DNA of 26,275 nucleotides from a virus, in the IMG/VR virus record IMGVR_UViG_3300021138_000145, positions 1-26,275 of that record, one strand, 5' to 3'. A program made the position numbers and the translations under genes. This document shows, piece after piece, positions 1,023 to 23,000 of the stretch (its first letter is position 1; each line of letters opens with the position of its first letter). The notes beneath the pieces are model-generated. The model worked only from the letters and a program-made list of their open reading frames with translations. It searched no databases and was not told the origin of the DNA.

Positions 1023-1908
1023 TTGATTTGATCCTTCTCGGTGCATTAGTATAAACAGTTTTATGAAATCTGCTTCCCGCTGGATCTAAATTAGCAATTT
1101 CTAAATTACATTTTTGCATAAGATCCTTACCTAATTGATTAATTAAAGTAGTTGCACCTTCTGGTGTTAACCATTCATGTTGATCTTTCCATCTTTCAGC
1201 TAGATAGTCAAAATCTCTAACATTACTGTAATCCCAATCAGTACAATTAGTTAAATATGCACCTTCCCTTGCACCTAAAATGCTCCACATACCGTGTTCG
1301 ACATCAGCTCCTACACTACACCAAATAAGAAGTCTGTTGTAATTTTGCCAATGTATTTGTTTAAGATCAGAAACTTTGGCACCCTGATCTAATGACATTT
1401 TTACGCCTTCGCGAAATCCTGCTCTCCACGCTTGTTCAGGTGTAGCATTAGTAAAACTTTCACTGTAGTTTTCTGTAAACTGATAATACAAGTCATCAAA
1501 ACAAAATTCAACTAAACCCTTAGTATTATTAGGATCTGAATTTTCATGTGTTTTCATATTATTAACAAATTCTGGAGTCCACATTTTAAGGCCGCCATTA
1601 CCGTACATCAATCCGTTAACATGTACTTTTCCGCACCAACTAAACACATGTTTAGATGTTAATCCTAATTTATCTAAATCAATTTCTACTTCTAAAAAAC
1701 GCGGATCGATAATGTTATCACCATCCACAGTAACAAAGTATTCTGTTTCACATTGTGCGGCGCAGGCTTTGTGTGCGGCATCACTACCTTTAACTCCATG
1801 CACACGTTTTGCCCACGGCACTTTAGTTAATAAGTCTGCATAATTTTTTTCAGCATTAGATTCGTTATAGCTGAGAAAAATTATATCTTGTTCAATTACT
1901 TTTATCAT
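1015..1908 (-). CDS. Glycosyltransferase-like protein (GT-A-type, VDGD motif)
   Basis: 297 residues. Opens with QDIIFLSYNESNAEKNY, then RVHGVKGSDAAHKACA (about 35-50), then YFVTVDGDNIIDPRF (about 57-71). VDGD fits the DxD position of GT-A fold transferases that bind a nucleotide sugar through a divalent metal. Later conserved blocks are GNGGLKMWTPEF, WRAGFREGVKMS and LIWCSVGADVEHG. It is a longer paralogue of the gene at 306-1022, with an additional C-terminal tail of about 50 residues (LGKDLMQKCNLEIANLDPAGSRFHKTVYT and on). The ATG at 1908 is preceded by AAGGTG four bases away, overlapping the stop of the upstream gene. No signal peptide or membrane helix is seen, so it should act in the host cytoplasm. 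Possible roles are glycosylation of virion proteins or of host surface polymers. The enzymatic assignment is inferred from the motif only. Confidence 0.6.
   Translation of the reverse strand: MIKVIEQDIIFLSYNESNAEKNYADLLTKVPWAKRVHGVKGSDAAHKACAAQCETEYFVTVDGDNIIDPRFLEVEIDLDKLGLTSKHVFSWCGKVHVNGLMYGNGGLKMWTPEFVNNMKTHENSDPNNTKGLVEFCFDDLYYQFTENYSESFTNATPEQAWRAGFREGVKMSLDQGAKVSDLKQIHWQNYNRLLIWCSVGADVEHGMWSILGAREGAYLTNCTDWDYSNVRDFDYLAERWKDQHEWLTPEGATTLINQLGKDLMQKCNLEIANLDPAGSRFHKTVYTNAPRRIKSNV
1032..1039 (-). promoter_or_regulatory. Ribosome binding site that decides the start at 1022
   Basis: GAGAAGGA on the minus strand, 9 bases before the ATG at 1022-1020. It lies inside the last codons of the upstream gene, so that gene's translation runs into it. 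It favours the start at 1022 over the in-frame ATG at 1046. Confidence 0.6.
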
Positions 1909-1911
1909 TTG

Positions 1912-2466
1912 TCACCTTATTAAATTATATGCTAAATCTGAATTAGTTAGCAAAGAAAGATTATCTTGTTCCTCGATGTTACTTTCAAACGGAATAATAA
2001 TTTTATCCAATATTAAATCTTTGAATGGTAAATTAAAAGTTCTAATTATATAATCTCTGTTATCTTTTAATGTAAGATATAATTGTACAGAATCTCCGAT
2101 AATTTTTTTATCATAATAATTTTGTCTTGCATGATCGTTTAATAAAAAAGTCCACTCATGTGTATAATAAACTTCTATATCGGCAAGTTTATTCGAAGAA
2201 ATCTCTTTTAATTTTTTATTTTTTAATTTAGGTTTTTTGACATTAATACAAATTAATTGGTCGTTTTCAACCTTAAAGTCTAAAATCTTACTAATTCCTA
2301 ATGTAAAGTTTTCATATTCAGTATAAGTAATTTCTATGGAATGTGTATGTTCTTTTAATTTTTCATTAGAAATAGAAACAATATTGCCAGTGTCTGCATT
2401 ATAATGAGCATAAAACTTAGGCGCCCATACCGGTGGTGGAGGTGGAAAAAATTCTTCTTCATCCAT
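1912..2466 (-). CDS. Hypothetical protein with acidic/polyproline N-terminus
   Basis: 184 residues, function not recognised. The N-terminus is striking: MDEEEFFPPPPPVW, an acidic cluster followed by five prolines, then PKFYAHYNADTGNIVSISNE. The FYAHYNADTGNIVSI segment resembles short beta-hairpin leaders of phage tail or tail-assembly proteins, but this is too weak to name a family. The rest alternates short strands and lysine-rich stretches (VKKPKLKNKKLKEI). The start at 2466 has a strong ribosome binding site (GGAGGAG, about 7 bases away) placed inside the end of the upstream glycosyltransferase gene, which it overlaps by 8 bases. Lying between two pairs of glycosyltransferase-like genes, it may work with them as a scaffold or acceptor, but nothing in the sequence shows this. 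Confidence 0.6.
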   Translation of the reverse strand: MDEEEFFPPPPPVWAPKFYAHYNADTGNIVSISNEKLKEHTHSIEITYTEYENFTLGISKILDFKVENDQLICINVKKPKLKNKKLKEISSNKLADIEVYYTHEWTFLLNDHARQNYYDKKIIGDSVQLYLTLKDNRDYIIRTFNLPFKDLILDKIIIPFESNIEEQDNLSLLTNSDLAYNLIR

Positions 2467-3301
2467 TTATCAACTCCTCCATTTTTAATAATATCGATTC
2501 TGTTAGAAAATCTTTTTCTACATAATGAAATACTTTAGTTTGTTTAATGTTGTTTATTAGTAATTTACCTTTAGAATTAAAATCAATAAAAACATCATTA
2601 GACCATTTTTCTGGAGAAACATTCCAACCTTGTATTGGAGATTTCATATGTATAAATTCCATTGGGTTATTAATATCCAAAACTTGTTCATGTGCTCCTG
2701 TAATTTCAATTGTTATAGCAGTTGCTAAATCCATACTAGACCAATTCTGATACTTTTCTGGAGCAAATATAGACCAACATTTTTCCCAATTGTTACAAAC
2801 AAACTCTAATACTTTATAAAAGTCTTGTGCAAATTCAGATTTTTTAAAATAATGCAATGCATAGTATGGGTTAGATAATTTATTAGTGATAAATGTTTGT
2901 CGATGTACTGTATCTTTAATTATGTATTCCAATTTATAATTTAGTATTTTATCACAAAAAACAACATCTTTACTATTACAATAGTTCCACCAATTTGATA
3001 AATCTTCTAATATTAACATATCACTATCTAAAACAATAGTTTCATAGTAAGGTGTTGCATTATATAATTGATATCTATGCTCAGTTTTTAATTCACTATT
3101 TACTTCTGCATTAAAAAATGGAATTGGAATTATTTGATCAAATACATGTTTGTAAGTGTCTGGCACTACATCGTTAGTAACAATTGAAATGTTTTTAATA
3201 TCAACTTGAGTATATTTTATACTTAATGCCAAGGCATAGGCTTGTTGAATATAATCAACAGTATCCGAATTTTGTGCAAAAACTAAGAATCCTTTAGACA
3301 C
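2459..3301 (-). CDS. GT8-like glycosyltransferase candidate (DSD motif), GTG start
   Basis: 280 residues. The N-terminus GFLVFAQNSDTVDYIQQAYALALSIK and the strand ISIVTND are typical of a nucleotide-sugar-binding Rossmann-like half. YYETIVLDSDMLIL at about residues 85-98 carries the DxD motif (DSD, 92-94) of GT-A/GT8-type glycosyltransferases. The C-terminal half has KVFHYVEKDFL, comparable to the late metal-binding H-x-x-x region of GT8 enzymes. It is a paralogue of the next gene (both start with xxGxxxFAQNxxxxDYxxxA). Translation starts at GTG (3301-3299). No other in-frame start lies nearby, and GGAGGT sits about four bases upstream. It overlaps the genes on both sides by 8 bases, which suggests coupled translation. 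Sugar and acceptor are unknown. Confidence 0.65.
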   Translation of the reverse strand: MSKGFLVFAQNSDTVDYIQQAYALALSIKYTQVDIKNISIVTNDVVPDTYKHVFDQIIPIPFFNAEVNSELKTEHRYQLYNATPYYETIVLDSDMLILEDLSNWWNYCNSKDVVFCDKILNYKLEYIIKDTVHRQTFITNKLSNPYYALHYFKKSEFAQDFYKVLEFVCNNWEKCWSIFAPEKYQNWSSMDLATAITIEITGAHEQVLDINNPMEFIHMKSPIQGWNVSPEKWSNDVFIDFNSKGKLLINNIKQTKVFHYVEKDFLTESILLKMEELING

Positions 3302-4139
3302 CCGAACCTCCGTCGATATATCGGCTAAGACTAGATTTATTCATAACATGAACATCTATACCTGTAGTTTTTATTAGTGTATATTCTCCTAAATATTTTT
3401 CTTTTTCTATTAGGAATTTCATTTTATTATCAGTTGCTTCAACTAAAATGTCTTTATCTAATATATAAGACATTTTACCTGGAAGTTCCGTAGCAAAATC
3501 TCCAGCAGTATTTCCATTCATTATATGTATTGCAATGCTAAATGCGATATCATTTCGATATGTATCAAGATTTATACTATACAATGATCTAAAATAACTC
3601 CAATTAATTTTGATATGATCTAATAGATTAAAAAAACTTTCTACTACATTATTCTTTTTAAACACAAATACAGTTGCCCAATAAAAAGGAATACTATATT
3701 GATTAATTCTCATAAATTCTCTGTTGTCTCTCCAGCCCGCCAAATCTATACTGTTTTGATATATTTGAAAATCATAATCTCTAGTTAGCGCCATACTTAA
3801 AATATCGGAATTTAAAATATAATCACTGTCAATAACAAGGGTCGTATCGTAAGGAGTTAATTTATATACATTGGTACGAGATTCATTTTTCCATTCTAGA
3901 TTCTTGTTAAAAATTGAACCATCATAAAACTTTTTTAATTGAGTAGTATCCGAAAAATGATCGATGATTTGATCAAAAGGATGATCAGGATTGCTAGTTT
4001 CAAGCCATCCTTTACTATCAGTTATGATAGAAACAGGAATATTTAAATATTGTTTAATACGTTTAGCCGCAAATACAGCCAGCTTTACATAATCAATTCC
4101 TGAATTGTTTTGTGCAAAAATTATTGCTCCAGTTGTCAT
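3294..4139 (-). CDS. GT8-like glycosyltransferase candidate (DSD motif), paralogue of the gene downstream
   Basis: 281 residues. Layout parallels the neighbour at 2459-3301: GAIIFAQNNSGIDYVKLAVFAAKRIK, then VSIITDSKGWL, then YDTTLVIDSDYILNSDIL with the DSD motif at about 104-106, and a C-terminal IDVHVMNKSSLSRY segment in the place of the neighbour's VFHYVEKDFL. Identity between the two is low and confined to these motifs, so the duplication is old or they were acquired separately. Its ATG overlaps the stop of the upstream small gene in an ATGA arrangement (4136-4139), and no strong ribosome binding site is seen, so translation is probably coupled. No signal peptide. Likely cytoplasmic transferase; substrate not deducible. 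Confidence 0.62.
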   Translation of the reverse strand: MTTGAIIFAQNNSGIDYVKLAVFAAKRIKQYLNIPVSIITDSKGWLETSNPDHPFDQIIDHFSDTTQLKKFYDGSIFNKNLEWKNESRTNVYKLTPYDTTLVIDSDYILNSDILSMALTRDYDFQIYQNSIDLAGWRDNREFMRINQYSIPFYWATVFVFKKNNVVESFFNLLDHIKINWSYFRSLYSINLDTYRNDIAFSIAIHIMNGNTAGDFATELPGKMSYILDKDILVEATDNKMKFLIEKEKYLGEYTLIKTTGIDVHVMNKSSLSRYIDGGSGV

Positions 4140-4480
4140 AATTCTACTATATCAATAATTTTTCTTTTATTTTTTATATTAGCGTATTTTTCAAAATATT
4201 CTGCGGAAGCAGTATCATATATTGATATAATATCATTTAAAAACTTTGCAGTATTATCAATTTTAACAGGAAGATTATTTGAATCAATTAAAATTAAATC
4301 ATCTGATTTTTCTAACATTGTTTTTACAAAACTGATTAATGCGGGAGTAATTTTAAATGTGGCACCGGCAACATAATAAATTAATTTTTGATTATATTCT
4401 TCTAATATTATACGACGCTGATTAGATAGCGTTGCCATAAAATTGGCTGTGGCAAAGGCTTTTTCGATTCTTTCATCCAT
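4136..4480 (-). CDS. Small conserved phage hypothetical protein
   Basis: 114 residues, soluble, mostly helical by composition. It starts MDERIEKAFATANFMATLSNQ with a long amphipathic helix and ends in a lysine-rich helix (YANIKNKRKIIDIVEL). The middle has ATFKITPALISFVKTML and DLILIDSNNLPVKID. I recall similar small proteins (a FxxxxxLxNQ start followed by LIDSNNLPxxI) beside structural genes of T4-like marine phages, always without a known function. The ATG at 4480 has GGAG 7 bases upstream. It follows the largest intergenic gap of the cassette (61 bases) and leads the overlapping glycosyltransferase run, so it may be the first gene of that translational unit. Confidence 0.65.
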   Translation of the reverse strand: MDERIEKAFATANFMATLSNQRRIILEEYNQKLIYYVAGATFKITPALISFVKTMLEKSDDLILIDSNNLPVKIDNTAKFLNDIISIYDTASAEYFEKYANIKNKRKIIDIVEL

Positions 4481-7046: not shown

Positions 7047-8111
7047 TTACCAGGTGCTTAAACCAGCACGTTTCCAGGTATTTGTTGCCACGCATACATA
7101 AACATATCCCGAATCCCATGCAATTTGACCAGTAACTCCTGGGCTAGATGATGATGCCGGTGCTGAACTAGATATTCTAAAAGTACCGTTTACATCTAAA
7201 GTAGCTTGAGGTATACTATTAAAAATTCCTACTGTATTACCACTAGCGTTAATAAAAAATGCAGAAGAAAGAGTTGATCCTGCTAATGTACTAATTACAA
7301 AATTCTGGTTTGCTGTGTTTGAAGATATTTGAAAAATGTTAGAACTAACATTTATTTCATTATTACTATTAGGTCCAAGAATTAATGGTGAATTATTTGT
7401 AATTGTTAGCTGGCCATCTATGGAAGAATTACCGCTAGTTGTTACGAAATCTTCTACAACGTATGTAGTTACACCGTCGGCTGCTAATAATTGACTAGCA
7501 GTTAATACTGGAGCATCAAAAATTAGTCCTTGAATGTTACTAGCATTAAATCCAACTGAAATATTGCCTGTAAATCCGCTGATAGCTGATCCTGGGGTGA
7601 ACGAAGTATCACTGAAAATTCCTAATAATGTTCCTCCCACATATAGATAAACAATTGTGCGAGATATACTATTCGAATCAAGAATAGATTCAACTTGAAA
7701 TCCATTTAAGCCTTGGCTTTTTGTATATATCGGGCCTGCTAATACATTAGAAATGCCATCATTAAAATATAATTGTGCATTTACACTATCGATCCAAAAA
7801 TCACCAGTAGTTATATTGCTAGGCACTGTTGAAGATACTTGCGCTCCTCCGATATTTGCAAAACTAGATCCGTTATAAACTTTTAAAACATTTTGAGTTG
7901 TGTCGTACCACACTTGCCCGGTTAACGGATTCGGTGGTTGAGATGTATTTGCAAAGTTTTCTAATAGATATACAAAATTATCATTGAGATATAATCCATA
8001 ACTAGTAGAATTTTTTCCTATAAGTGTTAAATCCGTTGTAGTTTGATCAACTTGACCATCAACAATTTGAGTTAATAGTGTACCGTCAGTTAAGTTTATT
8101 GTATAGCTCAT
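7047..8111 (-). CDS. Tail fibre protein with shared N-terminal anchor
   Basis: 354 residues. Residues 1-130 are the anchor shared with its two neighbours (MSYTINLTDG, GKNSTSYGLYLNDNFVYLLENFAN, GQVWYDTTQNVLKVYNG, GDFWIDSVNAQLYF). The middle is a short beta-rich shaft (NNSPLILGPNSNNEINV, ATLDVNGTFRISS). The last 35 residues, VTGQIAWDSGYVYVCVATNTWKRAGLSTW, form a compact tip commonly seen at the end of marine phage fibres. The protein starts at an ATG that shares its A with the stop of the upstream gene (TAATG, 8109-8113). No good ribosome binding site precedes it, so it is probably made by reinitiation after the 800-residue fibre, which would tie their amounts together. Confidence 0.8.
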   Translation of the reverse strand: MSYTINLTDGTLLTQIVDGQVDQTTTDLTLIGKNSTSYGLYLNDNFVYLLENFANTSQPPNPLTGQVWYDTTQNVLKVYNGSSFANIGGAQVSSTVPSNITTGDFWIDSVNAQLYFNDGISNVLAGPIYTKSQGLNGFQVESILDSNSISRTIVYLYVGGTLLGIFSDTSFTPGSAISGFTGNISVGFNASNIQGLIFDAPVLTASQLLAADGVTTYVVEDFVTTSGNSSIDGQLTITNNSPLILGPNSNNEINVSSNIFQISSNTANQNFVISTLAGSTLSSAFFINASGNTVGIFNSIPQATLDVNGTFRISSSAPASSSSPGVTGQIAWDSGYVYVCVATNTWKRAGLSTW

Positions 8112-10513
8112 TATATAACACCAGTGAAAATTATGTAATTTATAGTTAAGAAAGGATTCATTATTGTAACTGGTAACGATGCCGCTGGAGCCGGAACACT
8201 AACACTACCACTATCGGATAAACCATAACCTTGGCCTGTTTGGCTCGATGTAGCTAATCCGAGCCCTGGAGTAATATTAGTAAGTTGACTTTCAGCAGTT
8301 CCTGGAACCCAGCCTGGAGTTCCTACAGCATAAAATTGTTGATATCCATCGCTAAGACTATGTTTATGGTCTGGTAAATTCGATGCCGATAACGTAATAT
8401 TTTGACTTCCGTCTCCGGCACCTACTGTATCTGCTGTAACTGTAGATACACGATTTGCAGATCCACCGCCTGCAGAAATTAAAGTAGTAGACGAAGAAGC
8501 TGAAGGTACAGTTAATCCGTTATTCATGTTATCTGCACCTAGCGCAAATCTTCCACGTAAATCAGGTAACGCAAATGTACTTAATCCATTTAATAAAGCA
8601 GATGCTTTATAAGTATACTGTAATACTGCAAATAACGCAGGATACTTACTAATCTGTACTTCACTACCATCGCATAACAAATATCCAGTTGGTAAATTAG
8701 TAGCAAGACCTGCATATGGAAATATAGAGCCTACTGGAACTGTTGCAGTATGATTAAACAAAACTTGTTTAGACATACTTACTAGCTGATTCGAGCTTGC
8801 TTGATATACCAACAATTGATCGTTTAGTGAAGAATCTATTGCTACTGTTTTTTGAGTAATGATACTTGAACTAATAGAAGTATTGAATATTGCAGAACCT
8901 GTTTGTGTTTGTCCATTAAAGACTAAATCGTCACTAGTTACATCTCCAGATAAAGAAAATGTTGTAGGAGAAGTTAATTTTGTAGCAGATCCTGACACAT
9001 TACCAGTTACTGTTCCAGAAAACGTTCCTGTAAAATTGCCATTAAAAGATTGTGCATATACATTTCTAAATTGGAATGAACTACTTCCAATATCATATGC
9101 TAAATTCGAATTAGGAAGTATAGCTACAGAATTCATATCTGCGCCGACATTAATTGCACCAGATGTGCCTGTAGTTGTTCCGCCTACTGTTAAAGTATTT
9201 CCTATTGTAGCATTTAATTGAATTGATATGCCACCGCTTGTCTGGATACTAGCACCACCTGGATCAAATGGGCTACCGCTAGTTGTTCCTATGTCGCTAG
9301 TACCTTGTACTATCAATCTTCCTGGAACAGGAGCTGAAGGAATACTTCCTATAAATTGTAAAACAGCAGTACCATCGGTAGCAGTGCCACTAGAAAAACT
9401 AGGAGCCGATGTCCCAGTTGTACCTGCTGTTATAACTTGATAATAATAATTATTTGATGTAATATAAGAATTTAATGTAACACTTGTATTACTTGTCCAT
9501 GCAATTGCTTGTGTGCTAGGATCATCTTTAATAGTTGTTCCGCCAATGACATCTAATGTAGATAACGGATTAGTATTATTAGCGCCAACACCTAACCGTG
9601 CATTAGCATTTAAATGCAACCCTGTAACAATAATACCCATATTGTTTGTTGCAAATTCAACTGCATTACCATTATTTTTAGAATAAAAAACAGTAGTCGA
9701 ACCATTGACACCAATGTTGAATCCTAAACCAGCTCCTAAAGTAATACCACCATCGTTTCTTACGTTGATAGGATAATTTGCTACAGATGTTATATCATTT
9801 CTTAAAAAGTTTGCCGCGGGAACCGTAGTAGTACCTACTAATAATGCATCAGCTTGTTGTGCAGTACCCCAGAATCTAGTTAAACTACTTGCATTAGTTG
9901 AATCAACTGTAGTTAAATTAATACCTTCATTAATTGTAGTGAATCCAAGTATGGCAGATTTAGGAGTAAAAGCATCTTTACTAATAATCATCATTCTGTA
10001 ACTAGTAGTTGTAGTGATAACACTAGTTGCATATACTGTTGTTACAGTATGGCTAATATTATTAGTATCTATAATAGTTTCTAATATTGGCCCAGATTGT
10101 AATCCTGAACTATATTGAGGCCCGACTAATACAAATGCAGATCCGGAGTACAAGTATAATTGACTATTAATAGTGTCAACCCACAAATCACCAGTATTTG
10201 AATTAGTAGGTGCTGTACCTGATTTTTTAACACTACCTACAGCGTTCCAGGTACTACCATCATATACATATAACAAATCAATACCAGATGTATTATCAAA
10301 CCATAATTGACCTTGCACAGGATTAGCTGGTGCAGAACTATTAGCAAAGTTTTCTAATAAATGTAAAAAATCTCCCGCTATAATAGGAGCATATCCTGAA
10401 TAATTTTTTCCTACATACTGCAAACTAGTGGTGTTATCAACTGCACCATCTTGAATAGTAATAGGTTGTTTATCTGGATTATTAGATTCAGTAAATGTAA
10501 TAGTATAAGACAT
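8111..10513 (-). CDS. Large tail fibre protein with shared anchor and tail collar domain
   Basis: 800 residues. Residues 1-130 are the shared anchor (YVGKNYSGYAPIIAGDFLHLLENFAN, GQLWFDNTSG, GDLWVDTINSQLYLYSG, FVLVGPQ). A second domain to about 250 parallels the 493-residue fibre (GFTTINEGINL, RFWGTAQQADAL). Residues 250-590 are a Gly/Ser/Thr-rich shaft with NARLGVGANNTNPLSTLDVIGGT and SNLAYDIGSSSFQFRNVYAQSFNG, typical of trimeric beta-structured fibres. A phage Tail Collar domain follows at about 593-660: VPVGSIFPYAG, LPTGYLLCDGSEV, YPALFAVL, FALPDLRGRFALG. The C-terminal 140 residues (LSASNLPDHKHSLSDG ... MNPFLTINYIIFTGVI) are the usual collar-associated tip with a HKH motif that in related fibres can bind a metal. 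AGGAG precedes the ATG by 8 bases. Likely a receptor-binding short or distal fibre. Confidence 0.87.
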   Translation of the reverse strand: MSYTITFTESNNPDKQPITIQDGAVDNTTSLQYVGKNYSGYAPIIAGDFLHLLENFANSSAPANPVQGQLWFDNTSGIDLLYVYDGSTWNAVGSVKKSGTAPTNSNTGDLWVDTINSQLYLYSGSAFVLVGPQYSSGLQSGPILETIIDTNNISHTVTTVYATSVITTTTSYRMMIISKDAFTPKSAILGFTTINEGINLTTVDSTNASSLTRFWGTAQQADALLVGTTTVPAANFLRNDITSVANYPINVRNDGGITLGAGLGFNIGVNGSTTVFYSKNNGNAVEFATNNMGIIVTGLHLNANARLGVGANNTNPLSTLDVIGGTTIKDDPSTQAIAWTSNTSVTLNSYITSNNYYYQVITAGTTGTSAPSFSSGTATDGTAVLQFIGSIPSAPVPGRLIVQGTSDIGTTSGSPFDPGGASIQTSGGISIQLNATIGNTLTVGGTTTGTSGAINVGADMNSVAILPNSNLAYDIGSSSFQFRNVYAQSFNGNFTGTFSGTVTGNVSGSATKLTSPTTFSLSGDVTSDDLVFNGQTQTGSAIFNTSISSSIITQKTVAIDSSLNDQLLVYQASSNQLVSMSKQVLFNHTATVPVGSIFPYAGLATNLPTGYLLCDGSEVQISKYPALFAVLQYTYKASALLNGLSTFALPDLRGRFALGADNMNNGLTVPSASSSTTLISAGGGSANRVSTVTADTVGAGDGSQNITLSASNLPDHKHSLSDGYQQFYAVGTPGWVPGTAESQLTNITPGLGLATSSQTGQGYGLSDSGSVSVPAPAASLPVTIMNPFLTINYIIFTGVI

Positions 10514-10516
10514 TTA

Positions 10517-11125
10517 TTATACTCCTACCAAACCAGTTAAACTTTGAATTCGAACAGTATAATCTATTTGAATTAACCTATTAAGACTTTTTAATACAGG
10601 GTGAAAAATAACATGTGTCAATAAAGATGTAGACCCATCTGTATTATAACTCTGCAACCCTAATTCGTCAAATACGTATGCACTTTGACCATTTGATTCT
10701 ATATCATAAGCACTTTGCCCGCTAGGTTCACCATAATCTAACAAACAAGTTACAAATACATCAGTATAGTTTGTACCAGTTGTATGACGTGTTTCTATAA
10801 AATTCCTAGTAGGATCTAAATTATTGCTTGATTCTTGATTTACAACTTTAACGTAGGTTTGATTATATAAACTAGCGTTAGTTCCGCTTGTGTTTGGGGT
10901 TAGATAGGTAATAATTCCGGTTGGATCAATACTGGTTCCACCGTTGCCAAATGCCATTTGGTAAACAAAACCATTACCGCTGTCTGCTAGACTTTGTGCA
11001 ATAGCAATACTCATATTTTCGTAATGAATAGCATTACGTTTATTGATGAAGATTTCTTTAGAAATAGGGTCATAAATCTTAATATGACCTTCAATATGGA
11101 TTCCTGTTGAGTCTTTAGTCTGCAT
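10517..11125 (-). CDS. Conserved T4-like phage virion structural protein
   Basis: 202 residues. Recognised blocks: TGIHIEGHIKIYDPISKEIFINKRNAIHYENMS, then MAFGNGGTSIDPTGIITYLTPNTSG, then LLDYGEPSGQ, YVFDELGL, and the C-terminus LTHVIFHPVLKSLNRLIQIDYTVRIQSL. This whole order is, as I recall it, highly conserved next to tail fibre genes in marine T4-like phages, where it has no experimentally known function. Compact length and invariance suggest a structural connector or baseplate-associated part rather than a variable receptor binder. A late-promoter-like box sits 19 bases before the ATG. GAGAG is the likely ribosome binding site. Only 3 bases separate it from the 800-residue fibre downstream. 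Confidence 0.75.
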   Translation of the reverse strand: MQTKDSTGIHIEGHIKIYDPISKEIFINKRNAIHYENMSIAIAQSLADSGNGFVYQMAFGNGGTSIDPTGIITYLTPNTSGTNASLYNQTYVKVVNQESSNNLDPTRNFIETRHTTGTNYTDVFVTCLLDYGEPSGQSAYDIESNGQSAYVFDELGLQSYNTDGSTSLLTHVIFHPVLKSLNRLIQIDYTVRIQSLTGLVGV

Positions 11126-11144
11126 AATATCTCTCTTTATCTAT

Positions 11145-11152
11145 TATTTATC
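11145..11152 (-). promoter_or_regulatory. T4-like late promoter box GATAAATA
   Basis: The minus strand reads CTGATAAATAATAG in the 47-base gap 11126-11172, with the box ending 19 bases before the ATG at 11125. It shares TGATAAATA with the box at 7025-7032 and resembles the T4 late consensus. It would start a transcript covering the conserved virion protein and the large fibre. Confidence 0.6.
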
Positions 11153-11172
11153 AGTGTTCATTATCTGATAGT

Positions 11173-12402
11173 TTAATATGCTCTTGCACCATTATTTTTT
11201 CTTGGATAAACTGCGCCGGTTGAATTTCTAAAACCATAATTTAGTTTAGGATATATCGATCCAGTACGTACTAAAGCATATAAAGATGCGCCTATAGGTG
11301 GACCCAATCCGGTTACAGGATCCCAGCCCGAGGTACCTGCATACCCATTACTAATTGATCCAGTGTCTTTACCCACAGTTATATCATAAAATACACTTTG
11401 ATGTGCATAAGCCAAGGTATTCCAATCAACACTTGATCTTTTAACTCCAGTTAATTGCAGGATTCTAGCAAACATACCAGCTAATGTTGGGCAAGCAAGG
11501 CTTGTTCCTCCAGCAGCCGCTAATGTTCCGCTTTGATAATAGATATATGCACTCATAGGAGCAGAAATATCTGGTACTCCTCTCATAGTCAACGATGTTG
11601 GACTGCCCGTTACTCCGCTAGTAACAGGAGTATAATGTAGTCCAGTTTGCCAGCTAGGCAAGCTAAATGTTGTACTTATTCCGCCGCCGCCGCCCCAACC
11701 TGAAGGAAAATTGGAATCTCCATTATCATCTGTTTCTAAAGATCTCACGTTTTGAGCTGTAACATACAAATGTGTACCGCCTACTCCGATTGCATTAGGG
11801 CTCGATGCCGGGTAAACTACCGCTTCAGAGGAGCTTCCTTCACTAACTACACTTCCGTAGTCCCCCGATGATGCACAGAAAACAATTTTGTTAGAGGCTA
11901 ATAAAGCTAGATTTGTTTCATCTGCTGTATATTCAGCACCACCCCAACTCATAGTACATATATGTACTTGATCTGAAATTGCTTGAGCAACCATACTTGA
12001 AAGATAATTTCCAATATAGATACTAATATTAGCAAGAGGTGCCATACAAGCTGTACAATATATATCTACAGTATTTTCTCCATCTGAGCCAGTACCAGTG
12101 TATGTTCCTGTTTGACCATCTAATAGTACTGTTCTAATTGTAGGAGCCGTTAAATTAGATGATATCAATCCTGCCGTTTGTAAATCTGAAAAAGATTTAT
12201 TAAGATCACTTTGTTGAAAGCCACCACCAAAACTAAAAATTGCAATTTTTACACCATACCCTGTACTATTAGGAATTCCGTATGCGGCTGCTATGGAAGG
12301 AGGAGTTAAATAGGTTGGCAAATAAGAATTTATGCCTTCAGGACTTGCTCCTTCGGGCATTACTAAATCTACCGGAATAAGATTTGATGGTTTAAAGTCC
12401 AT
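11173..12402 (-). CDS. Sedolisin-type (S53) serine-carboxyl peptidase in the tail module
   Basis: 409 residues. Sedolisins are endopeptidases with a Ser-Glu-Asp catalytic set and a bound calcium, usually acid-active. The order of motifs is complete: LTPPSIAAAYGIP (about 32-44) as at the start of mature sedolisins; GENTVDIYCTACMAP with Glu109 and Asp113 (the ExxxD pair); CTMSWGGAEY (149-158); CASSGDYG with Asp181 (oxyanion Asp); YPASSPNAIGVGGT; and GGTSLACPTLAG with the nucleophile Ser301. The calcium site region follows: FYDITVGKDTG with Asp340, then GYAGTSGWDPVTGLGPP with Asp361. Subtilisin-type DTG and HGT motifs are absent. No signal peptide and no propeptide: only about 31 residues precede the mature domain, whereas secreted sedolisins carry a prodomain of about 150-200 residues. 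The C-terminus holds a short basic repeat (IYPKLNYGFR / VYPRKNNGAR). It lies 1 base after the repeat fibre with GGAAG as ribosome binding site, so it is expressed with late structural genes and is probably virion-associated (inference). Confidence 0.88.
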   Translation of the reverse strand: MDFKPSNLIPVDLVMPEGASPEGINSYLPTYLTPPSIAAAYGIPNSTGYGVKIAIFSFGGGFQQSDLNKSFSDLQTAGLISSNLTAPTIRTVLLDGQTGTYTGTGSDGENTVDIYCTACMAPLANISIYIGNYLSSMVAQAISDQVHICTMSWGGAEYTADETNLALLASNKIVFCASSGDYGSVVSEGSSSEAVVYPASSPNAIGVGGTHLYVTAQNVRSLETDDNGDSNFPSGWGGGGGISTTFSLPSWQTGLHYTPVTSGVTGSPTSLTMRGVPDISAPMSAYIYYQSGTLAAAGGTSLACPTLAGMFARILQLTGVKRSSVDWNTLAYAHQSVFYDITVGKDTGSISNGYAGTSGWDPVTGLGPPIGASLYALVRTGSIYPKLNYGFRNSTGAVYPRKNNGARAY

Positions 12403-12403
12403 A

Positions 12404-14041
12404 TTATACTTCCAATTTTAAATATGTAATTGTTACTGTAATTGGGTTTGTCGAACCGCTATTGTTATAAATCTTCAAATACATATTTGTACTAGGTGTT
12501 CCATCGGCATTAAATCCAAATACTGCTGGAGTAAAATAAGTAGTAGTTGCAGTTGTTGTAATTGATTCAGCAACTACTCCGCTACCAGGAGTTGGATCTG
12601 TGCTAATGTTTCTACTACTATCATTAGATTGAGCTGTGGAACTTGTATAAACTGTTACCCAGGCACCAACACTAGTTTGTATACTGTACAATAGATATCC
12701 TTTAGCAGCCGTAACAGTTGCAGTAGCACTAGCGGTATTGGATAAACTTGCTGTCGTAGTTGCTACTGTAGTACGACTACTTAACGAACCAGGGCTTGCT
12801 ACTAATTGATTACTGCCGTTTAATATAATTGTTGAGCCATCTATTTTAACTCCGCCTAAAACTGTTGTACTTGCTGTTGGCAATGAATATGTATTTGCAC
12901 CGCTGATAACACCACTACCGTTAATTGTAATAGTGGTACCATCTACTTTGACTCCGCCTAATGTTCCAGTGCTTGCTGTAGGTAATGAATATGATGTAGC
13001 ACTTATTACTCCGCTTCCGTTAATTGTAATAGATGACCCATCAATTCTTACTCCTCCAAGAATACTAGTAGTCGCTGTTGGAAGAGAATAAGCACTTGCG
13101 CTACTAATAACACCACTACCATTAATTGTAATAGTTGTTCCATCTACTTTGACTCCTCCTAGTGTGTTAGTAGTTGCGGGAGAAACACTGATTAAACCGC
13201 TAGTTGAAGTAATTGAAGTTCCGTCTACTTTAACTCCTCCGATGATTGTTGTAGATGCTATCGGTAATACAGAACTAATTGTTCCATTATTAATAACAAT
13301 ACTCGATCCATCAACTTTAACTCCACCAAGTACACTAGTAGTTGCAGTAGGTACCACTGAACTAATTACTCCGCCGGTTGAAGTAATTGTAGTACCATCA
13401 ACTTTAACTCCACCTAATACAATTGCAGTTGCAGATGGTAAAATATATTGAAGTTGATTACTTCCATTTAGAGTGATTGTAGTTCCGTCAATTTTAACTC
13501 CGCCGAGTACACTAGTACTTGCAGTTGGTAATGTATAAGGAGTTGTACTACTAATAACTCCAGTTGAAGGATTAATAACAATACTAGATCCATCTACTTT
13601 AACTCCGCCTAATGAGCTTGAAGTAGCGATAGGTAAACTATAAGACCCTGGAGTTGCACTAATTACTCCTCCATTAATATTAATTGTTGAGCCGTCTACT
13701 TTAACTCCGCCGAGTACGCTAGTACTTGCAGTTGGTAATGAATAAGGTGTAGCACTTATTACACCTGAATTAGTAGTAATAGTAACTCCATCAATTTTAA
13801 CTCCTCCTAACACCGTTGTTGATGCTAAAGGTATAGAATAGTTAAGTATTGCCGATGCTGGTTGCCAAATTAATGATGATCCATTTGTAGATAAAATATA
13901 TCCATTATTACCAGCTTGTGATGGCACAATAGAAGAATACAATTCAGAAAAGTTTGCATTTATTTTTGTTCCACCAGTTCTTAAAGTATCCCCGGTACCA
14001 TCATCTGTTGCTGTACCTAAATTCAATAATTGTTGTGCCAT
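12404..14041 (-). CDS. Repeat-rich tail fibre protein (about eleven LGGVKVDG repeats)
   Basis: 545 residues. Residues 1-36 (LNLGTATDDGTGDTLRTGGTKINANFSELY) are a well-known phage fibre N-terminal module that attaches fibres to the virion. Residues about 68-415 are eleven tandem copies of a 29-35 residue unit of the form YSLPTASTSVLGGVKVDGxTITINGxGVISA, expected to make a long trimeric beta shaft. Residues about 420-545 are a separate beta-rich end (LYSIQTSVGAWVTVYTSS, FTPAVFGFNADG, MYLKIYNNSGSTNPITVTITYLKLEV) that may be a receptor-binding or capping domain. The start at 14041 has AGAGGA 9 bases before it, made from the last codons of the upstream giant gene, only 6 bases away. No catalytic motif is visible. 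Confidence 0.85.
   Translation of the reverse strand: MAQQLLNLGTATDDGTGDTLRTGGTKINANFSELYSSIVPSQAGNNGYILSTNGSSLIWQPASAILNYSIPLASTTVLGGVKIDGVTITTNSGVISATPYSLPTASTSVLGGVKVDGSTININGGVISATPGSYSLPIATSSSLGGVKVDGSSIVINPSTGVISSTTPYTLPTASTSVLGGVKIDGTTITLNGSNQLQYILPSATAIVLGGVKVDGTTITSTGGVISSVVPTATTSVLGGVKVDGSSIVINNGTISSVLPIASTTIIGGVKVDGTSITSTSGLISVSPATTNTLGGVKVDGTTITINGSGVISSASAYSLPTATTSILGGVRIDGSSITINGSGVISATSYSLPTASTGTLGGVKVDGTTITINGSGVISGANTYSLPTASTTVLGGVKIDGSTIILNGSNQLVASPGSLSSRTTVATTTASLSNTASATATVTAAKGYLLYSIQTSVGAWVTVYTSSTAQSNDSSRNISTDPTPGSGVVAESITTTATTTYFTPAVFGFNADGTPSTNMYLKIYNNSGSTNPITVTITYLKLEV
12797..13840. repeat. Tandem coding repeat, about 11 units of roughly 87-105 bases
   Basis: This is the DNA behind the fibre shaft. 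On the + strand each unit contains a variant of CCATCTACTTTAACTCCGCC, spaced about 87-105 bases. Units differ by many synonymous and conservative changes, so they are old or under selection to diverge while keeping LGGVKxDG. Two units (around 12800 and 13450) have the variant ending LNGSNQL instead of INGSGVIS. Unit number could change by recombination and so alter fibre length. Confidence 0.85.
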
Positions 14042-14047
14042 TTTTGA

Positions 14048-17000
14048 TTATCCTCTATCAAATGTTATATTTCCGTTGTCAAACGTACCAAGATCACTAT
14101 CGAATGTAGATGGTGGATTACTTGATTTTATTATATTATTACCTACTTTGTTATATTCACTATACAAGATTCCCGGAGCTCCGCGTAAAAAGTCAGCGAC
14201 AACTCCTGTATCATAAAGTATATCAATAGAACTGTCCCATGTAGTGCCTGTATTTTGAATAACAGTTATTTGTGTTCCATTATCTAATACATTTGCTAAA
14301 GTAATTTGTGCAGTTGTACCATTAACAGTGAAATCTGCAGGAAATTCAACATCTCCTGCTGGACTATAAGGGCCATTGTTTATATTGAATACACTATAAC
14401 TATTTTTCTTTAATCTAATATTACCTATAAAGAATTTCCAATTACTGCTATCTGCATAGAATGTAGAACCGCTAGTGTGTGTTGATGTGCATCTATAAGT
14501 ATATGGGCCAACATTTACTATAGTTCCAACATTATATGTTACACCGCTTGACCAAACTGCTCCATCATTGTATCCACCAACAAATACTTCTATAGTATTT
14601 TTAGCAATAGCTGCCGATTCTTGTTGTGTCAATGTAGATTGTTTATATTTCGATCCTGTGACATATTGTCCAGGAATAAACGGTAAGTTAACAATATTAG
14701 TTCCATCACTAATAACTTGTGTTATAATTTGATTATCAATATATGGAATAGTTGAACTAGTACCGATATCTTGTACAAAAGTACCAGCAAGATACAATGG
14801 ACGTAGTCCTGTACCTAGTGTAGCTCGTCTCAATTGACTTAAAATATTTCCGGATACTTGATAATATTCAATCCTTTCTCCGCAGATTTCGATTATTCCA
14901 GGTTTAGCATTGTTTGGATTTGGCAAATCAAAATTACTAGCATCTGTTACATGGATTTCAGTATCGCTCCATGTTAAATCTTGTGCTAAGGTAGTTTGTT
15001 TATCGGTACTTAATCTCTTATATGTAGTTCTGTTTAACATATCTTTAAATTGCATATAAGAAACACCAGGAAGTAATACGTCACTACTAAATGTAATAAT
15101 AGATAATACACTACTAGAATTTATCACAACGTCTTTATATAAAGTTAAACTTAAATGATCCGAATTTAATTTATAATCAATGTTCGGAGATAGTAAAGTA
15201 CCGTTAAGTGTTAACCAAACATACCCTTGATCGATAACATATCTATCTAAAGGTACAATATTACCTGTTAGATTTTTATATTCAAAATATGAAGGAGTGT
15301 TAATTACAAGATTAGCAGTTGAACTAATACTAATTTCAGTTCTTTGAATATCTAGAATATCGTGCTGATAGAAACCAATTACTTGTACTAAGTGAGTATT
15401 ATCATATGCCGTTGTAAAGGTTATCTGTTTTGTTGCAGAGTTATAAGTATAGGATTCTCCTGTTATCACACTGACAACTAATGTTTGTCCTGTATATGCT
15501 GAATAAATCTTTTTAGTAATTTTTATCGAGATTCCGCCTAAATCTACTACATAATCAGTTCCTAATTTTAATGGTGTTGTTCCTATTATTACAACAATAT
15601 CTTTTATATCAACAGAATATGGAACAAACTTAATAGGATCTATGATATAGTTTAAACGATTGCTTCCAATAGTAAAATATACATTGTTAGGTGGTTGCAA
15701 TATTGATTGGTCAACTCTAACTAGCATGTTTGATTCGTTTGGTAAATTGTTACCAATTTGATTTTGCAATGTATATGTTAGCCCGCCATTAGTTGATACA
15801 GTCTCTACTGTAGCAATAGAGAATGTTTTTTCTGTACCGCTGACAATAATATAATTAATAATCTGACCATCTGCTGGAGCAATTGAAAAACGCAACCCAA
15901 TAGTATCTATGATAGAATAAGTGCTATCAGTTTTAAACAGTATAGGATTTACAACTTCTCCATTTAAATAAACTAAACTAGTAACAGGAGTTGTCCATTC
16001 TATGTTTGTTACAAATTCAGTTGTTAATCCATCACCTATAAAGTAATCAATACCTAAGATATTTTTTCCGTTGTACCCTATACTAAACAAACTAAGTTGC
16101 TCATTAGCAGGAGGTATTGAATTTAAAATTACAGATTGCGTATTATAATTTATAGTATAATCTGTGTTTAAAGTTTTAATATTACCGTTAAGTTTAACAA
16201 TGACTGCACCAGAACTATTAAGAATTTGACTCAAAGAATACGATGCAGAAACTCCATTAGTAATGTAGTTGTCAACTTTAATATTTGCAGATCCAGTATG
16301 AGGAGTGTCAAACACTTTAATAGCCACAGTATCAACTACTTGCCCTGGTACTACTTCTTCTGGCGCTCCACTTGTATCCGGTGTTACAAAATCATCACCG
16401 TCAACAATAATATCATCTGCTAATAACCCTGTAGCGGTAGCATAAACTCCATTTAATTGACTAGTATTGCCACCACTTAAAGAAGTATCATAATCAGAAT
16501 CTGCAGGCAAGATAGAACCATCGCTAGTAATTTGTCTTATAACAAATTCATCGCCTTTATTTACAGTATATGTGTTTGGAATGGTAAATGTAGTATTAAC
16601 ACCGTCAGCTAAGAATGTATTCACAATAGAATTAGAATTATAAACAGGAATTAACAAAGTTTCTGAAGATAATATATTTTCAGCAATTGGCTGTAACGAC
16701 ATTGAGCCCAATGTAATTGTTGGATTAATTGTTGTTACTGAGCCGCCTGTCAAATAATTTATTACCGTAGAGATATTGTTAGAAAGTGCTGTACCTGCTA
16801 ACGAACCATTTATTAAAGAACTATTTTCATATTGTAAAAATTGTGTCTGTAAAGGCGTAACTGTAATATTAGAAATAATATCTTGTACTAATGTATTAAT
16901 ATGGTTGTATATATTAGTATCGAATGTATTCAAATCCGCTGTATCCAGATCTATCAAATAAGTATTTCCGTATACTTCGGCTGTTAATAATGATTGACTA

Positions 17001-20000
17001 TTTCCACCATATAACAAATTATAAATTAAAGATTCAACTGTATATTGAATTTGTGTTTGGAAAGCGCTGATACTAGTACTGTATCCGGAATAATTTGCTT
17101 TAATATACGCAACCATTTCTGCTTGAATAAAAGGTATATTGTCATTCAATAAAATTGCGGCATTAGTAATTCCTCCATTAGGAGATTGGAATGTATATGT
17201 TCCATTTTCATAATATTCTACGACTTCTATATTAATTTGAGCCGCAACATATCCATTATGTAGGGTTACATTTAATACTGTAGCTATTCCTGATATGCCT
17301 GGGCCAGTTACTGTCCAGTTTGTTGTCACTTGTGTAGCGTTAACATTTGCTACTGGCAAATATACATAATAGCCTAATGTTCCAATAGTAACATCTGGTG
17401 CAGTATATGTAATTACTACAGGTGTACCGTATGGCGAAGGATATATTGGCGTTGGCACAACTCCACCGCTAACAATTGTTGTTATAATATTTGCATAATT
17501 ATTAATCAATGATACAGCAGATGCGTTTGAAGATACTAAAGATAACTCTGTAATATTGCTAACAAGATTATTAATTGCTAAAATAGTTTCAGCTGAACGA
17601 TAATTGCGTACAGTAGAATATATTAAAATTGAATTACCTGTTTGGATACTTTGATAATTGCTTCCAAACAAAGAATCATACGTCACTGATGAAATTATTA
17701 AAGAAATAAATTGTTGATAGATATTATAATTAGGATCATCTAATCTTATAGGATTTAATTTTCCTGTAATAGTAATATTTGTACCTACAATAATATTTGA
17801 ATTAGTAAAACTAATTAAATTAATATCACTTGTATTAGGAATTACATAATCTACAAATTGAGTTAAAGTTCTAGTAAATGTTACACTACTACCAGCTGTA
17901 ATTGCATTATATAAAATATAATTTAGCGTGATTGTTGTAGCATTTACAATACTTAATACAGTTGTTCCTTCTACAAATAAACTGGTACCAGTTTGAGAAA
18001 CACTATCTCCTTCTTTAATTCCAGCTGTACTAGTAAGATGTAATGTTGAACTACCGACAACATTAGATGATCCTGTAGTTGTTGTACTCCAAGATGCACT
18101 AACAACTGGCGATACATCAGAAACATTAAATTGGAATTTTGTTGTCGACAAACTTTCCACTGTATAGCTATTTGTGTACGTTTGATTTTTGTAAATTGTT
18201 AGTTGAGTGCCTGCCAAAGGAGTATATGGCAATGTAAACGAATGTGTATTTGCCGCTACTACTACAGAATAGTCTGTATAGTTTGAATCATAAGAATCCC
18301 AGCCTGAAGAATAATAAGGAACACTATCCCAACCGTTAGATTCGACAAAATTCATTCCGCTGACTATTACTCCGCCATAATCGATACCAGTTAGTAATTG
18401 TGAAATATCTTTTCCTAACATACCTGCTGTAGGATTATAATAGTATTGTATTCTATCTGTCGCATTTAAAAGAGTTTGATCGATGTTATATGTAACAGAA
18501 ATGGCTGCATTTATTCCTGGTGGGCTTATAAATGTTATATTTCCAGCATATTGCGTATACCCATTTAGTTTTGAACTGGTGATATTTAATACATAACTAT
18601 CTCTCAAAGCTAAAGTATTATTAATAGTAACAGTACTTTGTCCTATACGTACATCAGGTGCCCATGTTAGTGGAAACTGCACACGATTTGACGTTCCGGT
18701 AAATGTTTCCGTTTTTTGTAACTGGGTAATATAATATGTTTGATTGATTCTATCAAACTTCATACCTACTAGTGTCGATCTAACAACGCTATCACCAATA
18801 ATTGCAACTGCTGTTGCGGCAACACCACCTTCAGCTAATCCACCTTGTATTGTAACTGTAGGTGCTGAAAGATATCCGCTGCCTGGTGTTAATAAAATAA
18901 TTCTATTTACTGAACCATTAGTAATAAATGCTTTAGCAGTAGCTCCAGTTCCGCCACCTCCTGATATTACAACAGTAGGAATAGTTGCATAATTAAACCC
19001 ATTACTAGTTAATATAATTTCTGTTATTTCAAAACCTACATCTTTGAACCAATTTTTCCAAGGAGCAACATTTATATTTGGATCTGAAGTAACTATTTTA
19101 TCATTCACAACGTAAGCATGCAATACTGTCATGCTACCATTTTCATATATTGGTTGCAAATCAAAATCTGTAATCGGTAGTTGAGATACATCTAAATTAG
19201 TGTAGTTGTCTACATATTCTCTAACTTTAGTTCTATAAGGTTTAACTTCGTTAACATAATCTTGGAAATTGCTGAGATTATCAGGCTGATATGTCACTGG
19301 TTGATTTAAAGAACCAACGCTATGTTCTGCTTTAACAAAACTAGTTTTAAAGATCCAATCAACATAAGGTTGTTCTTTATGAACATATCTTACACTATCA
19401 AAGAATAAATCTAAATATGAACCTGTTAAAGTGTTTATAAAAATATTATTTTGTAATGCATTAAGTATAATTCTTAATTCAACTGCGGCGTACAAATCAA
19501 AGCCATCTGCATCATATATGATATTATCATAGCCTAGATTTGTTCCGGCCATTTTATACAAATTACTACTTAATTGGATAGTTCCATTTTGCAACCCTAC
19601 TGTAGCATAAGATTGTGTCCAATCCACCGATACTGTATTAGAATATTTGTATAATAATGACCATCCACCGGATCCTGTTGTTCTTATTTTAACAGTTTCA
19701 CCAATTGAAACAGATATATTGTTTAAATCTGAAAGTGTTGCAACAGAAAAATCTGGTGCGGTAAACTGCGTGGCTATAAATAATACTTTATTCGAAGTCG
19801 GATCTGTGTAAGATCCATACCAATCTGCATAATTCCAGAATTTTCTAACATCATAACTTTGGGTTAGTGTTCTACTCCATATCTTGTATACAGGATCATA
19901 AGAATATATACTCCAATTGCCATCTGCACCACTATCGCTAGTTACTAATACACTATAATTTCTAACTGTAAATGTTGTATCAACATCATATCCGATACCA

Positions 20001-23000
20001 GATGATATAACATCAACTCCTGTGATTTGACCTTTAGAATTAATAATTGCTCGTAATATTGCTCCGGTGCCCGATCCATGAACTTCTATATAAGGAGCAA
20101 CTAAGTATCCTTTACCTGAAGAAGAGATAGTGGCTCCTATAATTCGACCGCTGCCGATTACTGGAGTTATAACAGGTATTGAATAATTTGCAATATTTGA
20201 ATAAGGTAATTCTGCATCCGTAGAAATTGTGCTATCGTACATGCCTAATACTGCATTTGGAATAGGATCGTAACTTTCTAAGGACGATAAATTACTATTT
20301 TCAACTATTTGATTTTGTAATAGAGTTTGATTAGCAATATCTACAAATTCTTTCAATGCTTCAAATCTGTTTATAAACATTCCTTGACGTGGGCGATTTT
20401 CAATACCGTAACGCAGTTTAAGAGGCAGTGCAGGATCAGGTACTACGCGGCCTTGTTCATCGACTCCGCAAAGACTATCAATCCATTTTTGTAAAATATT
20501 TTTTGGTATAATTGTTGTAGGATCATCACTTATAATTTTCCAATGTCTATGAACATTTTGGTCCACATTATCGATTAACCAATAATTTACACTTAGTACT
20601 AACTGCGTATCTTGTAAAAATTGTTTTGCATTAACTAAACTAAATGTGCTTTCACTAGTCAATGCAAGATATGTATAATTTTGACCTCTTGGATTTGCAA
20701 TAAGATTAGAAACATCTAACGCATCCATATGTCTTCCTGGAACATTTGGAATATATTTTTTGTTTTTAACCCAGAAATAATATGTTTTAGTGAATTTATT
20801 TGTTACACTATTAAAAACTTGGCTAACACTATACGCATTATTACCGTATATACTAGTTCCACTTATACCTTGAGCTAATCCTGTAGGAGTATCTGCTAAT
20901 AAATCCCACGCGGAAGGAAGTCCACTATACGATACCCATTCGTAAATGTCAATACTAGCTCCTGTAGCTAATGTATTCCAATTTGAATTACGATATATTA
21001 CATCATCAACATAAACATTTAAGAATTTTGCTGTTCTTAAATCCCACCATAGTTGTCCTAACTGTGCAGTAGTCCAAGATGCATTAGCATTTACATTAAC
21101 TGTAATAGTAGCGTCCGGGGCAATATAAGTATATACCGCTGGATCATAGAACGCTTTATAAGTTATTTCCTCATCTGCTGGGCCTGGTATTTTTCCTTGG
21201 GCAGGATCAATAAAATCAATATATTGAATTAGTTCGCCATCAATTCTATTGTATAAAAATGCTTTTTTAATCTTAGTTACATCAGGAATAGTCGATTTTG
21301 ATCGCATCTTTGTCCAAGAATATGATCCTGGAGATTTTTCATAATCAAATATAAGACCAGATTGTAATCCTCTATCTACACCATTAGGAGCTCCTACTAA
21401 AATATGGTTAGCTCCTACTGCAAAACCTGTTCCATAACCATCTAATACGCCAGATTCGCTAGTAACAAGTGCCGCAGTTCCAGTACCAATAGCACCGCCA
21501 GTGGCAACAAATTGTACACCTACTTTATTTGCTGAAGCGCCAATCGTAGTAAAATCTGTAGTTCCTAATGTAAGGATATCATACGTATTACCTGGAATAA
21601 GAAGAGCAGACGATACTACTGGGTTCACTTTTGTTAAACTTTCACTATATACCCACTGAGTTGCATATCGATCGTATACATCAATGCGTCCACTATTTGT
21701 TTGAGTTACTGAAAATACTGTTGAATTTTTGTCAAAAGTTGTTTTATTACTATCAAATGTTGTAGTTACATTTGTATCACCGTATTCACTATACACTACA
21801 AGTGTGTTGTAATCATTCATGAAAGAAATCTTACGGCCAAAATGTCCATTAATTTCAGGCTGATGTAATGCTAAAGTTTGATACTGTACATATTGCCCTA
21901 CAGAATTTAAAGAATAAATTGTAACAGAACCTTGTCCTTTTATTTGTGAGGTACTTGCAGTATCATCAGCGATAGCAATATATGTACCAGTACCCGATAA
22001 TGCTAGTTGAATATTACTATCAACTGTTGTAATTATTTGTGGAGTTTCAAATCCATTTCCGGTGTTAGTATAAATGTTAACTGTTGCATTTGATAACCCG
22101 TTAGTTGCACTAATAGCTAATGTAGTTTGATCTGCACTTAGCGCTATACTATATCCAAATCCTTGATTAATAGTTCCAGTAAAGATTTGTGACCAATTAT
22201 ATCCCCATCCGGCTATAGCAAAACTTAATACGCCCGATGGAGTTGAATCTGGTGTACCACTTAATGTCAATGTAGTTGAATTAACAACTTCTACAACAGT
22301 TTGACCACTTGTGAACCCATTTCCTATTACAACCATTCCTGCACGTATTCCAGAAGTGCTAGACAATACAAGTGTAGATTCTTCACTACCAGAAGGATTA
22401 TAAGCATAAGTTTCTTGTACAACAGTACTATAGGTAATATTATAAACTCTTCCAGCATTATTACTATAACCTGGAGCAGAAATATACAAATTATTATCGC
22501 CACCAAATATTAAACTTGAACCAAAGTTTTCGTTTGCGCTCGGCAATGGGCTAAGAATAGTATCTACTAAAGAATATATATTGTTGTAATCTTTCTTATA
22601 AAGACTTACTACACCTTGACCTGATGGGCCAGTTATCGTTGAGAAATAATTTGTAACATAAGTCCACAACGGAGTTCCAGTAAGCGGGTCTACTGCAACA
22701 TCTGGAGTTAGTTGAGCTTGTTGGGTGGCTACCATTGTTCCGTAAGCAGTAACTAACGGAACATACGATGAACTTCCTGCGGTAGCACTTATTTGAAAAT
22801 GATTTGAATCTATAATATTAGCAATATAATAAGTATTTCCTGCTATCAATCCACTTATTGATCCTACATTTGAAGTTGTTATCTTTCCTGGATATAATAA
22901 AACTCCTGTAGCGTTACTTGCAAAACTAACAGAGCTAGTCGTACAACTAATTACTGTATAAGTTCCATTATAAGCTGTAGGAATTACTTCTGATACAGTA

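Follow-up and report, generated by a model that had tools for sequence, protein, structure and literature searches.

A prodomain-less S53 peptidase gene paired with a fibre gene in a freshwater T4-like phage fragment, a candidate exchangeable tail-fibre cargo

Gene content of the fibre locus

The window analyzed here is the whole 26,275-nucleotide stretch of an IMG/VR virus record (IMGVR_UViG_3300021138_000145). It carries a series of genes on the minus strand in which a peptidase gene is flanked by genes matching phage virion proteins:

8111 to 10513, minus strand: fibre/collar protein, 800 aa, with a Phage Tail Collar domain
10517 to 11125, minus strand: 202-aa member of PHROG 11259, a family conserved among jumbo phages of the RaK2/Phosso type; borders the slot downstream
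11173 to 12402, minus strand: S53 (sedolisin/kumamolisin-type) peptidase gene, 409 aa, ATG start, without prodomain (open reading frame, homology, and structure)
12404 to 14041, minus strand: fibre gene, 545 aa, with a T4 gp9/10-type N terminus, head-fibre-like repeats, and a C-terminal domain termed fC (domain and PHROG matches)
12407 to 12817, minus strand: fC (PHROG 15343), the beta-sandwich at the C terminus of the fibre, into which the protease tail is proposed to plug
14048 to 26275, minus strand: PHROG 10938 giant virion protein, whose reading frame runs off the window; borders the slot upstream

The stop codon of the 545-aa fibre gene and the ATG of the peptidase gene are one base apart (TAATATGG), which confirms the spacing given in the first-pass annotation. 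That annotation had also placed the peptidase before a conserved virion protein, and the downstream gene indeed belongs to PHROG 11259, a family with members in Phosso, Atu_ph07, and RaK2/121Q-type jumbo phages; the nearest cultured relatives of the window member are those of Phosso (54%) and Atu_ph07 (49%). T4-type Gp23 capsid protein was found in 3 of 12 related records, and the Gp23 of a 345-kb record is 67 to 73% identical to those of Phosso, PA5oct-like phages, Vibrio 2.275.O, and Erwinia jumbo phages. The window is a fragment of a freshwater T4-like phage. Several of the IMG samples presumably come from humic bog lakes, a setting that would suit an acid protease and to which we give no weight.

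Elsewhere in the window, the giant PHROG 10938 reading frame encodes at least 4,075 aa with weak CBM_5_12-like stretches, and positions 1912 to 2466 (minus strand) show a sub-threshold Pfam resemblance to the restriction endonuclease HincII (E = 0.0037). The genes around it, at 306 to 4480, carry no functional assignment.

S53 catalytic domain and prodomain

The peptidase gene can be divided as follows, all on the minus strand:

11176 to 11259: C-terminal tail, residues 382 to 409, containing YPKLNYGFRNSTGAVYPRKNNGARAY; proposed docking tag that also occurs on S8 phage proteases
11263 to 12318: S53 catalytic domain, residues ~29 to 380 (kumamolisin alignment, invariance, and structure)
11320 to 11322: calcium-site D361 (alignment to kumamolisin)
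11383 to 11385: calcium-site D340 (alignment to kumamolisin)
11500 to 11502: S301, nucleophile Ser, in GGTSLACP
11860 to 11862: D181, oxyanion Asp, in SSGD
12064 to 12066: D113, catalytic Asp, in GENTVD
12076 to 12078: E109, catalytic Glu, in GENTVD
12319 to 12402: N-terminal extension of 28 aa, where other S53 enzymes have the prodomain (alignment)

In a phmmer comparison with PDB sequences, kumamolisin matched residues 29 to 375 (E = 6.8e-37), and sedolisin and TPP1 gave E values of ~6e-14 and 1e-5, respectively. E109, D113, D181, and S301 fall in the columns of kumamolisin residues that we take to be E78, D82, D164, and S278, and D340/I341 and D361, which are conserved in the sequence comparison, align on its single C-terminal calcium site. 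The six residues named earlier were thus found at the positions and in the order claimed, and Glu109 is by alignment the predicted general base. An AlphaFold model (mean pLDDT, 79.8; pTM, 0.84), which was built from 19 aligned sequences taken solely from the window and its loci, had kumamolisins as its best PDB structure matches (Foldseek E = 3.5e-24). Z scores were 42 to 45 for kumamolisins (VIA Z 45.0 for 1t1e; rmsd, 2.0 to 2.9), against 39.8 for sedolisin 1nlu, 31 for TPP1, and 25 to 26 for subtilisins, an outcome that bears out the kumamolisin or sedolisin fold expected of the protein. The superposition and the aligned columns imply that the catalytic residues would lie close together in space.

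E109, D113, D181, S301, D340, and D361 are invariant in all relatives that reach those positions. Because only the Glu/Asp motif among these six residues was part of the patterns used to fetch relatives, the way in which they were chosen does not account for the conservation seen at D181, S301, D340, and D361. Such invariance puts the presence of an S53 gene far beyond chance, and sequence, modelled fold, and active-site residues together support the prediction that the window protein is an S53 peptidase.

The precursors of S53 enzymes normally include a prodomain of ~150 to 180 aa, which the enzymes usually require for folding. The Pfam profile search proposed in the first-pass annotation labelled the window protein Peptidase_S8 (PF00082; 8e-11), a model that covers S8 and S53 at the clan level, but did not find the Pro-kumamolisin activation domain (PF09286; ~150 aa) in the gene. 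A scan of the protein sequence for the HGTH-type motif of the S8 Asp-His-Ser triad was also negative. The description of a complete sedolisin therefore holds for the catalytic domain, which is intact by its phmmer and structural matches (Z ~45), but not for the activation prodomain, which is missing. PF09286 was likewise absent from all 12 searched viral records with a prodomain-less S53 gene, also as a stand-alone copy, with the limit that these records are fragments, so that a stand-alone prodomain could lie outside them; it was detected in two control records with full-length phage S53 genes (L042 and L069).

The prodomain-less S53s form one clade (support, 100/100) nested among phage S53s, in a tree with cellular S53s from plasmid records as the outgroup and its rooting assumed. 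Because of this nesting, a single loss of the prodomain would be the simplest reading under the assumed rooting. The clade also provides a collection of S53 enzymes whose folding apparently proceeds in the absence of the usual prodomain. The position of kumamolisin Glu32 is Ser57 in the window protein and Ser, Gly, or Ala throughout the prodomain-less clade, and Glu is kept in 16 of 18 prodomain-bearing phage S53s (the other two are unreadable). Since Glu32 belongs to the extended catalytic network, its replacement by Ser57 means that the activity of the window enzyme may differ. The lost prodomain and the replaced Glu32 equivalent would also fit a catalytically dead S53 fold retained as a structural or binding module; we give that reading only a very slim chance, as the catalytic Glu, Asp, Asp, and Ser and the calcium-site Asp residues are invariant in the prodomain-less relatives that cover them, down to 55% identity.

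Compared with kumamolisin and kumamolisin-As (MEROPS S53), the window protein is thus alike in predicted fold, in its catalytic Glu-Asp-Asp-Ser set, and in its calcium-site Asp residues, and it differs in the absent prodomain, in Ser57, in its tail-fibre context, and in a docking-like C-terminal tail. IMG/VR holds dozens of S53 genes (24 loci at 55 to 76% identity were recovered with an alignment query), and tblastn with the window and full-length S53 queries gave no match in 50,697 INPHARED phage records. No cellular relative was confirmed in two genome-contig scans, which used exact short patterns and in which absence means little, and a search of the open-access literature found no paper on a phage sedolisin. 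As far as these searches reach, phage S53 peptidases, the prodomain-less clade, the linkage to fC, and the common tail described below are new; the S53 fold and family, and S8 genes annotated at this place in cyanophages, are already known.

Some relatives have additional domains. The S53 of L023 has a further C-terminal domain, and in L025/L026 the S53 domain is N-terminal in a protein of 1,414 aa that also contains Ig-like domains (He_PIG and Big_9). The latter gene, at positions 7968 to 12212, joins the sedolisin domain to bacterial Ig-like repeats that span ~1,000 aa. In L027 (8001 to 9264), the sedolisin gene is interrupted by a frameshift accompanied by a short repeat, SMSWGSSEYTGDEI, either through an assembly error or because it is a pseudogene. 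Sequence motifs near the sedolisin gene of the 345-kb record (L033/L034 in G001, 55 to 65 kb) point to several genes for FAD-dependent enzymes resembling tryptophan halogenases and to one for a NodU-like carbamoyltransferase, and the cultured phage S-SCSM1 is likewise annotated with genes of the tryptophan-halogenase-like/NodU-like carbamoyltransferase type.

The fC fibre domain and the protease slot

A search anchored on the PHROG 11259 protein revealed that the gene preceding it varies among phages. The giant virion protein mostly runs straight into PHROG 11259; other loci have a fibre alone, and a minority have a fibre followed by a protease. The gene order of the window, which the first-pass annotation had suggested looking for in phage genomes, is therefore found elsewhere, but a protease is absent from the slot in 45 of 59 non-redundant PHROG 11259 loci. 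The slot proteases are S53 enzymes with a prodomain (524 to 558 aa), prodomain-less S53 enzymes, or S8 subtilases. S53 and S8 thus exchange in the same slot, a feature omitted from the earlier description together with the lost prodomain and the C-terminal tail.

The domain preceding the protease gene is fC, the last ~130 residues of the fibre, which is modelled as a confident beta-sandwich (pLDDT, 93). With fC as the only anchor, and with a query alignment built from fibres that precede proteases, a protease gene lay directly after 75 of 81 fC genes among the best 80 of at least 594 loci. After removal of redundancy (90%), the same best 80 loci retained 56 fC genes, 52 with a protease directly next (29 S8 subtilases, 16 S53s with a prodomain, and 7 without) and 4 with none, and the gap from fC to protease was mostly one base. 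The PHROG 11259 sample, which is independent of the fC search, comprised 12 loci with both fC and protease, 2 with fC only, 2 with protease only, and 43 with neither (Fisher p = 6.8e-9, a nominal value, as the sequences are related). In L071/L072, a protease is present and fC is not upstream. In the S53 pairs, the fC and protease genes are out of frame. The S53 gene and the gene of an fC-ending fibre together make up a two-gene cassette, which suggests a role for PHROG 15343.

Structure searches with fC found nothing better than weak matches in the PDB (the best, to a plant-virus capsid, at E = 1e-3), so no function was read from its fold. One fibre cassette, at positions 551 to 5949 of L051, carries two S8 proteases.

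The same arrangement exists in cultured phages. In the T4-like cyanophages S-H38, S-CREM1, and Sf-FR1, an S8 protease gene beside a baseplate/tail-pin gene occupies this slot, behind a gp9/10-type fibre with fC at its C terminus; in S-H38 and S-CREM1 it lies directly after that "tail pin" gene. The cyanophage S8 proteins share the C-terminal tail motif of the window S53, whereas they belong to another peptidase family with an Asp-His-Ser triad and their own N-terminal region, and they are already annotated, although our searches met no characterization of them.

A protease encoded directly after a fibre gene, at near-zero spacing, might be expected to act in morphogenesis, cleaving the neighbouring fibre or the giant virion protein at assembly in the manner of a tail-fibre maturation enzyme, and fC, as the linked partner, could be its substrate. 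This role, maturation of tail fibres, was among those proposed in the first-pass annotation, and we now regard it as unlikely because close relatives do without the enzyme (the 45 protease-free loci have the same flanks) and its family changes, with S8 and S53 alternating beside similar fC domains. In addition, the tail common to these proteases is conserved in sequence and is not known to serve as a cleavage site, and T4-type phages have a prohead protease of their own.

The common C-terminal tail and a proposed role on the virion

Residues 382 to 409 of the window S53 are disordered in the AlphaFold model and carry a motif, R-P-x-[ST]-G-x-x-[YF]-P-R, that is common to the S53 and S8 slot proteases. 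In 57 of 74 proteases, the core [FYW]PR lies among the final 22 residues, compared with 2 of 698 other reading frames; most of the 17 proteases without a terminal [FYW]PR have an extra C-terminal domain, many with the motif just before it. When a profile made only from S53 tails was run against 5,678 six-frame reading frames, its best non-S53 matches were S8 slot proteases, of which only that of L109 was strong individually (3e-5; others 0.01 and weaker), and shuffled control sequences gave a best E of ~1.1. The kinship of S53 and S8 tails would thus rest on the overall pattern and not on single matches. Two loci fit a modular exchange in which catalytic domains would be swapped on a constant dock: L176 has an S53 bearing the S8-like tail RPATGMVWPR, and L141 has an S8 next to an fC that is 81 to 82% identical to S53-linked fCs.

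A regular-expression search found no second tail-bearing protein in the window; further tail-bearing proteins were found in S-SCSM1 and S-H9-1. Virions of S-SCSM1 were analyzed by mass spectrometry, with 45 proteins reported (PMC9602691). The GenBank record has 48 "(virion protein)" labels by our count and leaves several structural genes unlabelled, so the label seems a near, not exact, proxy for the mass spectrometry data. SSCSM1_231, the only fC protein of this phage, is labelled a virion protein, and the two best tail matches among 1,299 reading frames, SSCSM1_233 (80 aa) and SSCSM1_235 (368 aa), are encoded just downstream of it; SSCSM1_235 is also labelled a virion protein. Because neither protein has a recognizable protease domain, the tail may serve non-protease cargo too. 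SSCSM1_228, which combines S8 and laminin-G domains, is labelled a virion protein and has neither fC nor the tail. The virion proteomes of S-CREM2 and S-SZBM1 (PMC10665884, PMC9146016) are uninformative here because neither phage gave a protease match.

The earlier proposal of a virion-borne protease gains support from the fC linkage, the tail in common with S8 enzymes, and the S-SCSM1 labels, which speak only indirectly to its presence in the particle. Two other readings bear on this point. The enzyme might be a late, non-virion protein that is merely co-transcribed with the fibre and is released at lysis or acts on the surface from inside. An obvious signal peptide was not seen on inspection of the window S53, which agrees with such a protein, to which we nevertheless assign little probability given that the linkage is specific to fC (Fisher p = 6.8e-9) and that the common tail is also on an annotated virion protein of S-SCSM1. 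Alternatively, the S53 might ride in the virion, enter the cell, and act on host proteins or defence systems, much as the possible entry of cyanophage virion enzymes into the host has been discussed (PMC10665884, PMC9602691). Such an injected effector has a slim chance, as the gene lies among baseplate and fibre genes, the tail is fibre-linked, and the L025 enzyme is fused to Ig-like repeats. The L025/L026 fusion would instead count for a virion or fibre cargo. A typically acid-active family would also be ill suited to the neutral cytoplasm.

We consider it fairly probable that the window gene encodes a virion-borne S53 serine-carboxyl peptidase carried as exchangeable tail-fibre cargo and cutting host-surface protein, docking and substrate being the parts that we infer. 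The C-terminal tail would bind fC or another constant part of the fibre, and the docked enzyme would ride on the phage tail. On contact, it might cut outer-membrane, S-layer, or pilus proteins or a protein-rich matrix, and this cutting could expose a receptor or loosen the envelope. S53 enzymes characterized in other systems act at acid pH, so the protease may be inactive in the neutral cytoplasm of the host and function extracellularly. The clearing of host-surface protein is our best guess for its role.

More tentatively, and with our doubts slightly outweighing our confidence, we suggest that the tail is a plug by which varied cargo enters fC as a socket, allowing the phage to change its surface-clearing protease between acid and neutral types with the fibre unchanged. 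Such cargo would include S53 enzymes with or without a prodomain, S8 enzymes, and small or non-protease proteins like those of S-SCSM1. If true, the widespread fibre-protease cassette would imply a protein barrier on the hosts of many T4-like phages from fresh and marine waters, and the tag and socket would be ready for mounting enzymes on phage particles.

Phage fibre-borne enzymes are known chiefly as polysaccharide depolymerases. The proposed S53 cargo would resemble virion-associated depolymerases (PMC5380687) as a fibre-linked enzyme that clears a surface barrier before infection, whereas most of those enzymes degrade polysaccharide and form an integral part of the tailspike, and the window protease is encoded by a separate gene with a tail tag. 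The branched adsorption complex of RaK2-type phages, which through PHROG 11259 belong to the same broad phage group, consists of several fibres assembled on gp10-like domains (PMC10253068); unlike in the window cassette, no peptidase was found in the text of that paper.

In S-SCSM1 (L221), SSCSM1_233 and SSCSM1_235 (18678 to 18920 and 20593 to 21699) end in the tails RPATGQMYPR and RPQSGQMYPR. Among the fibre-linked S8 proteases of L120, L166, L170, L187, L196, and L200, some have a cupredoxin-like domain after the tail (YYYxCxxHxxMxGxI, recognized by eye), and others have an extension of ~310 aa.
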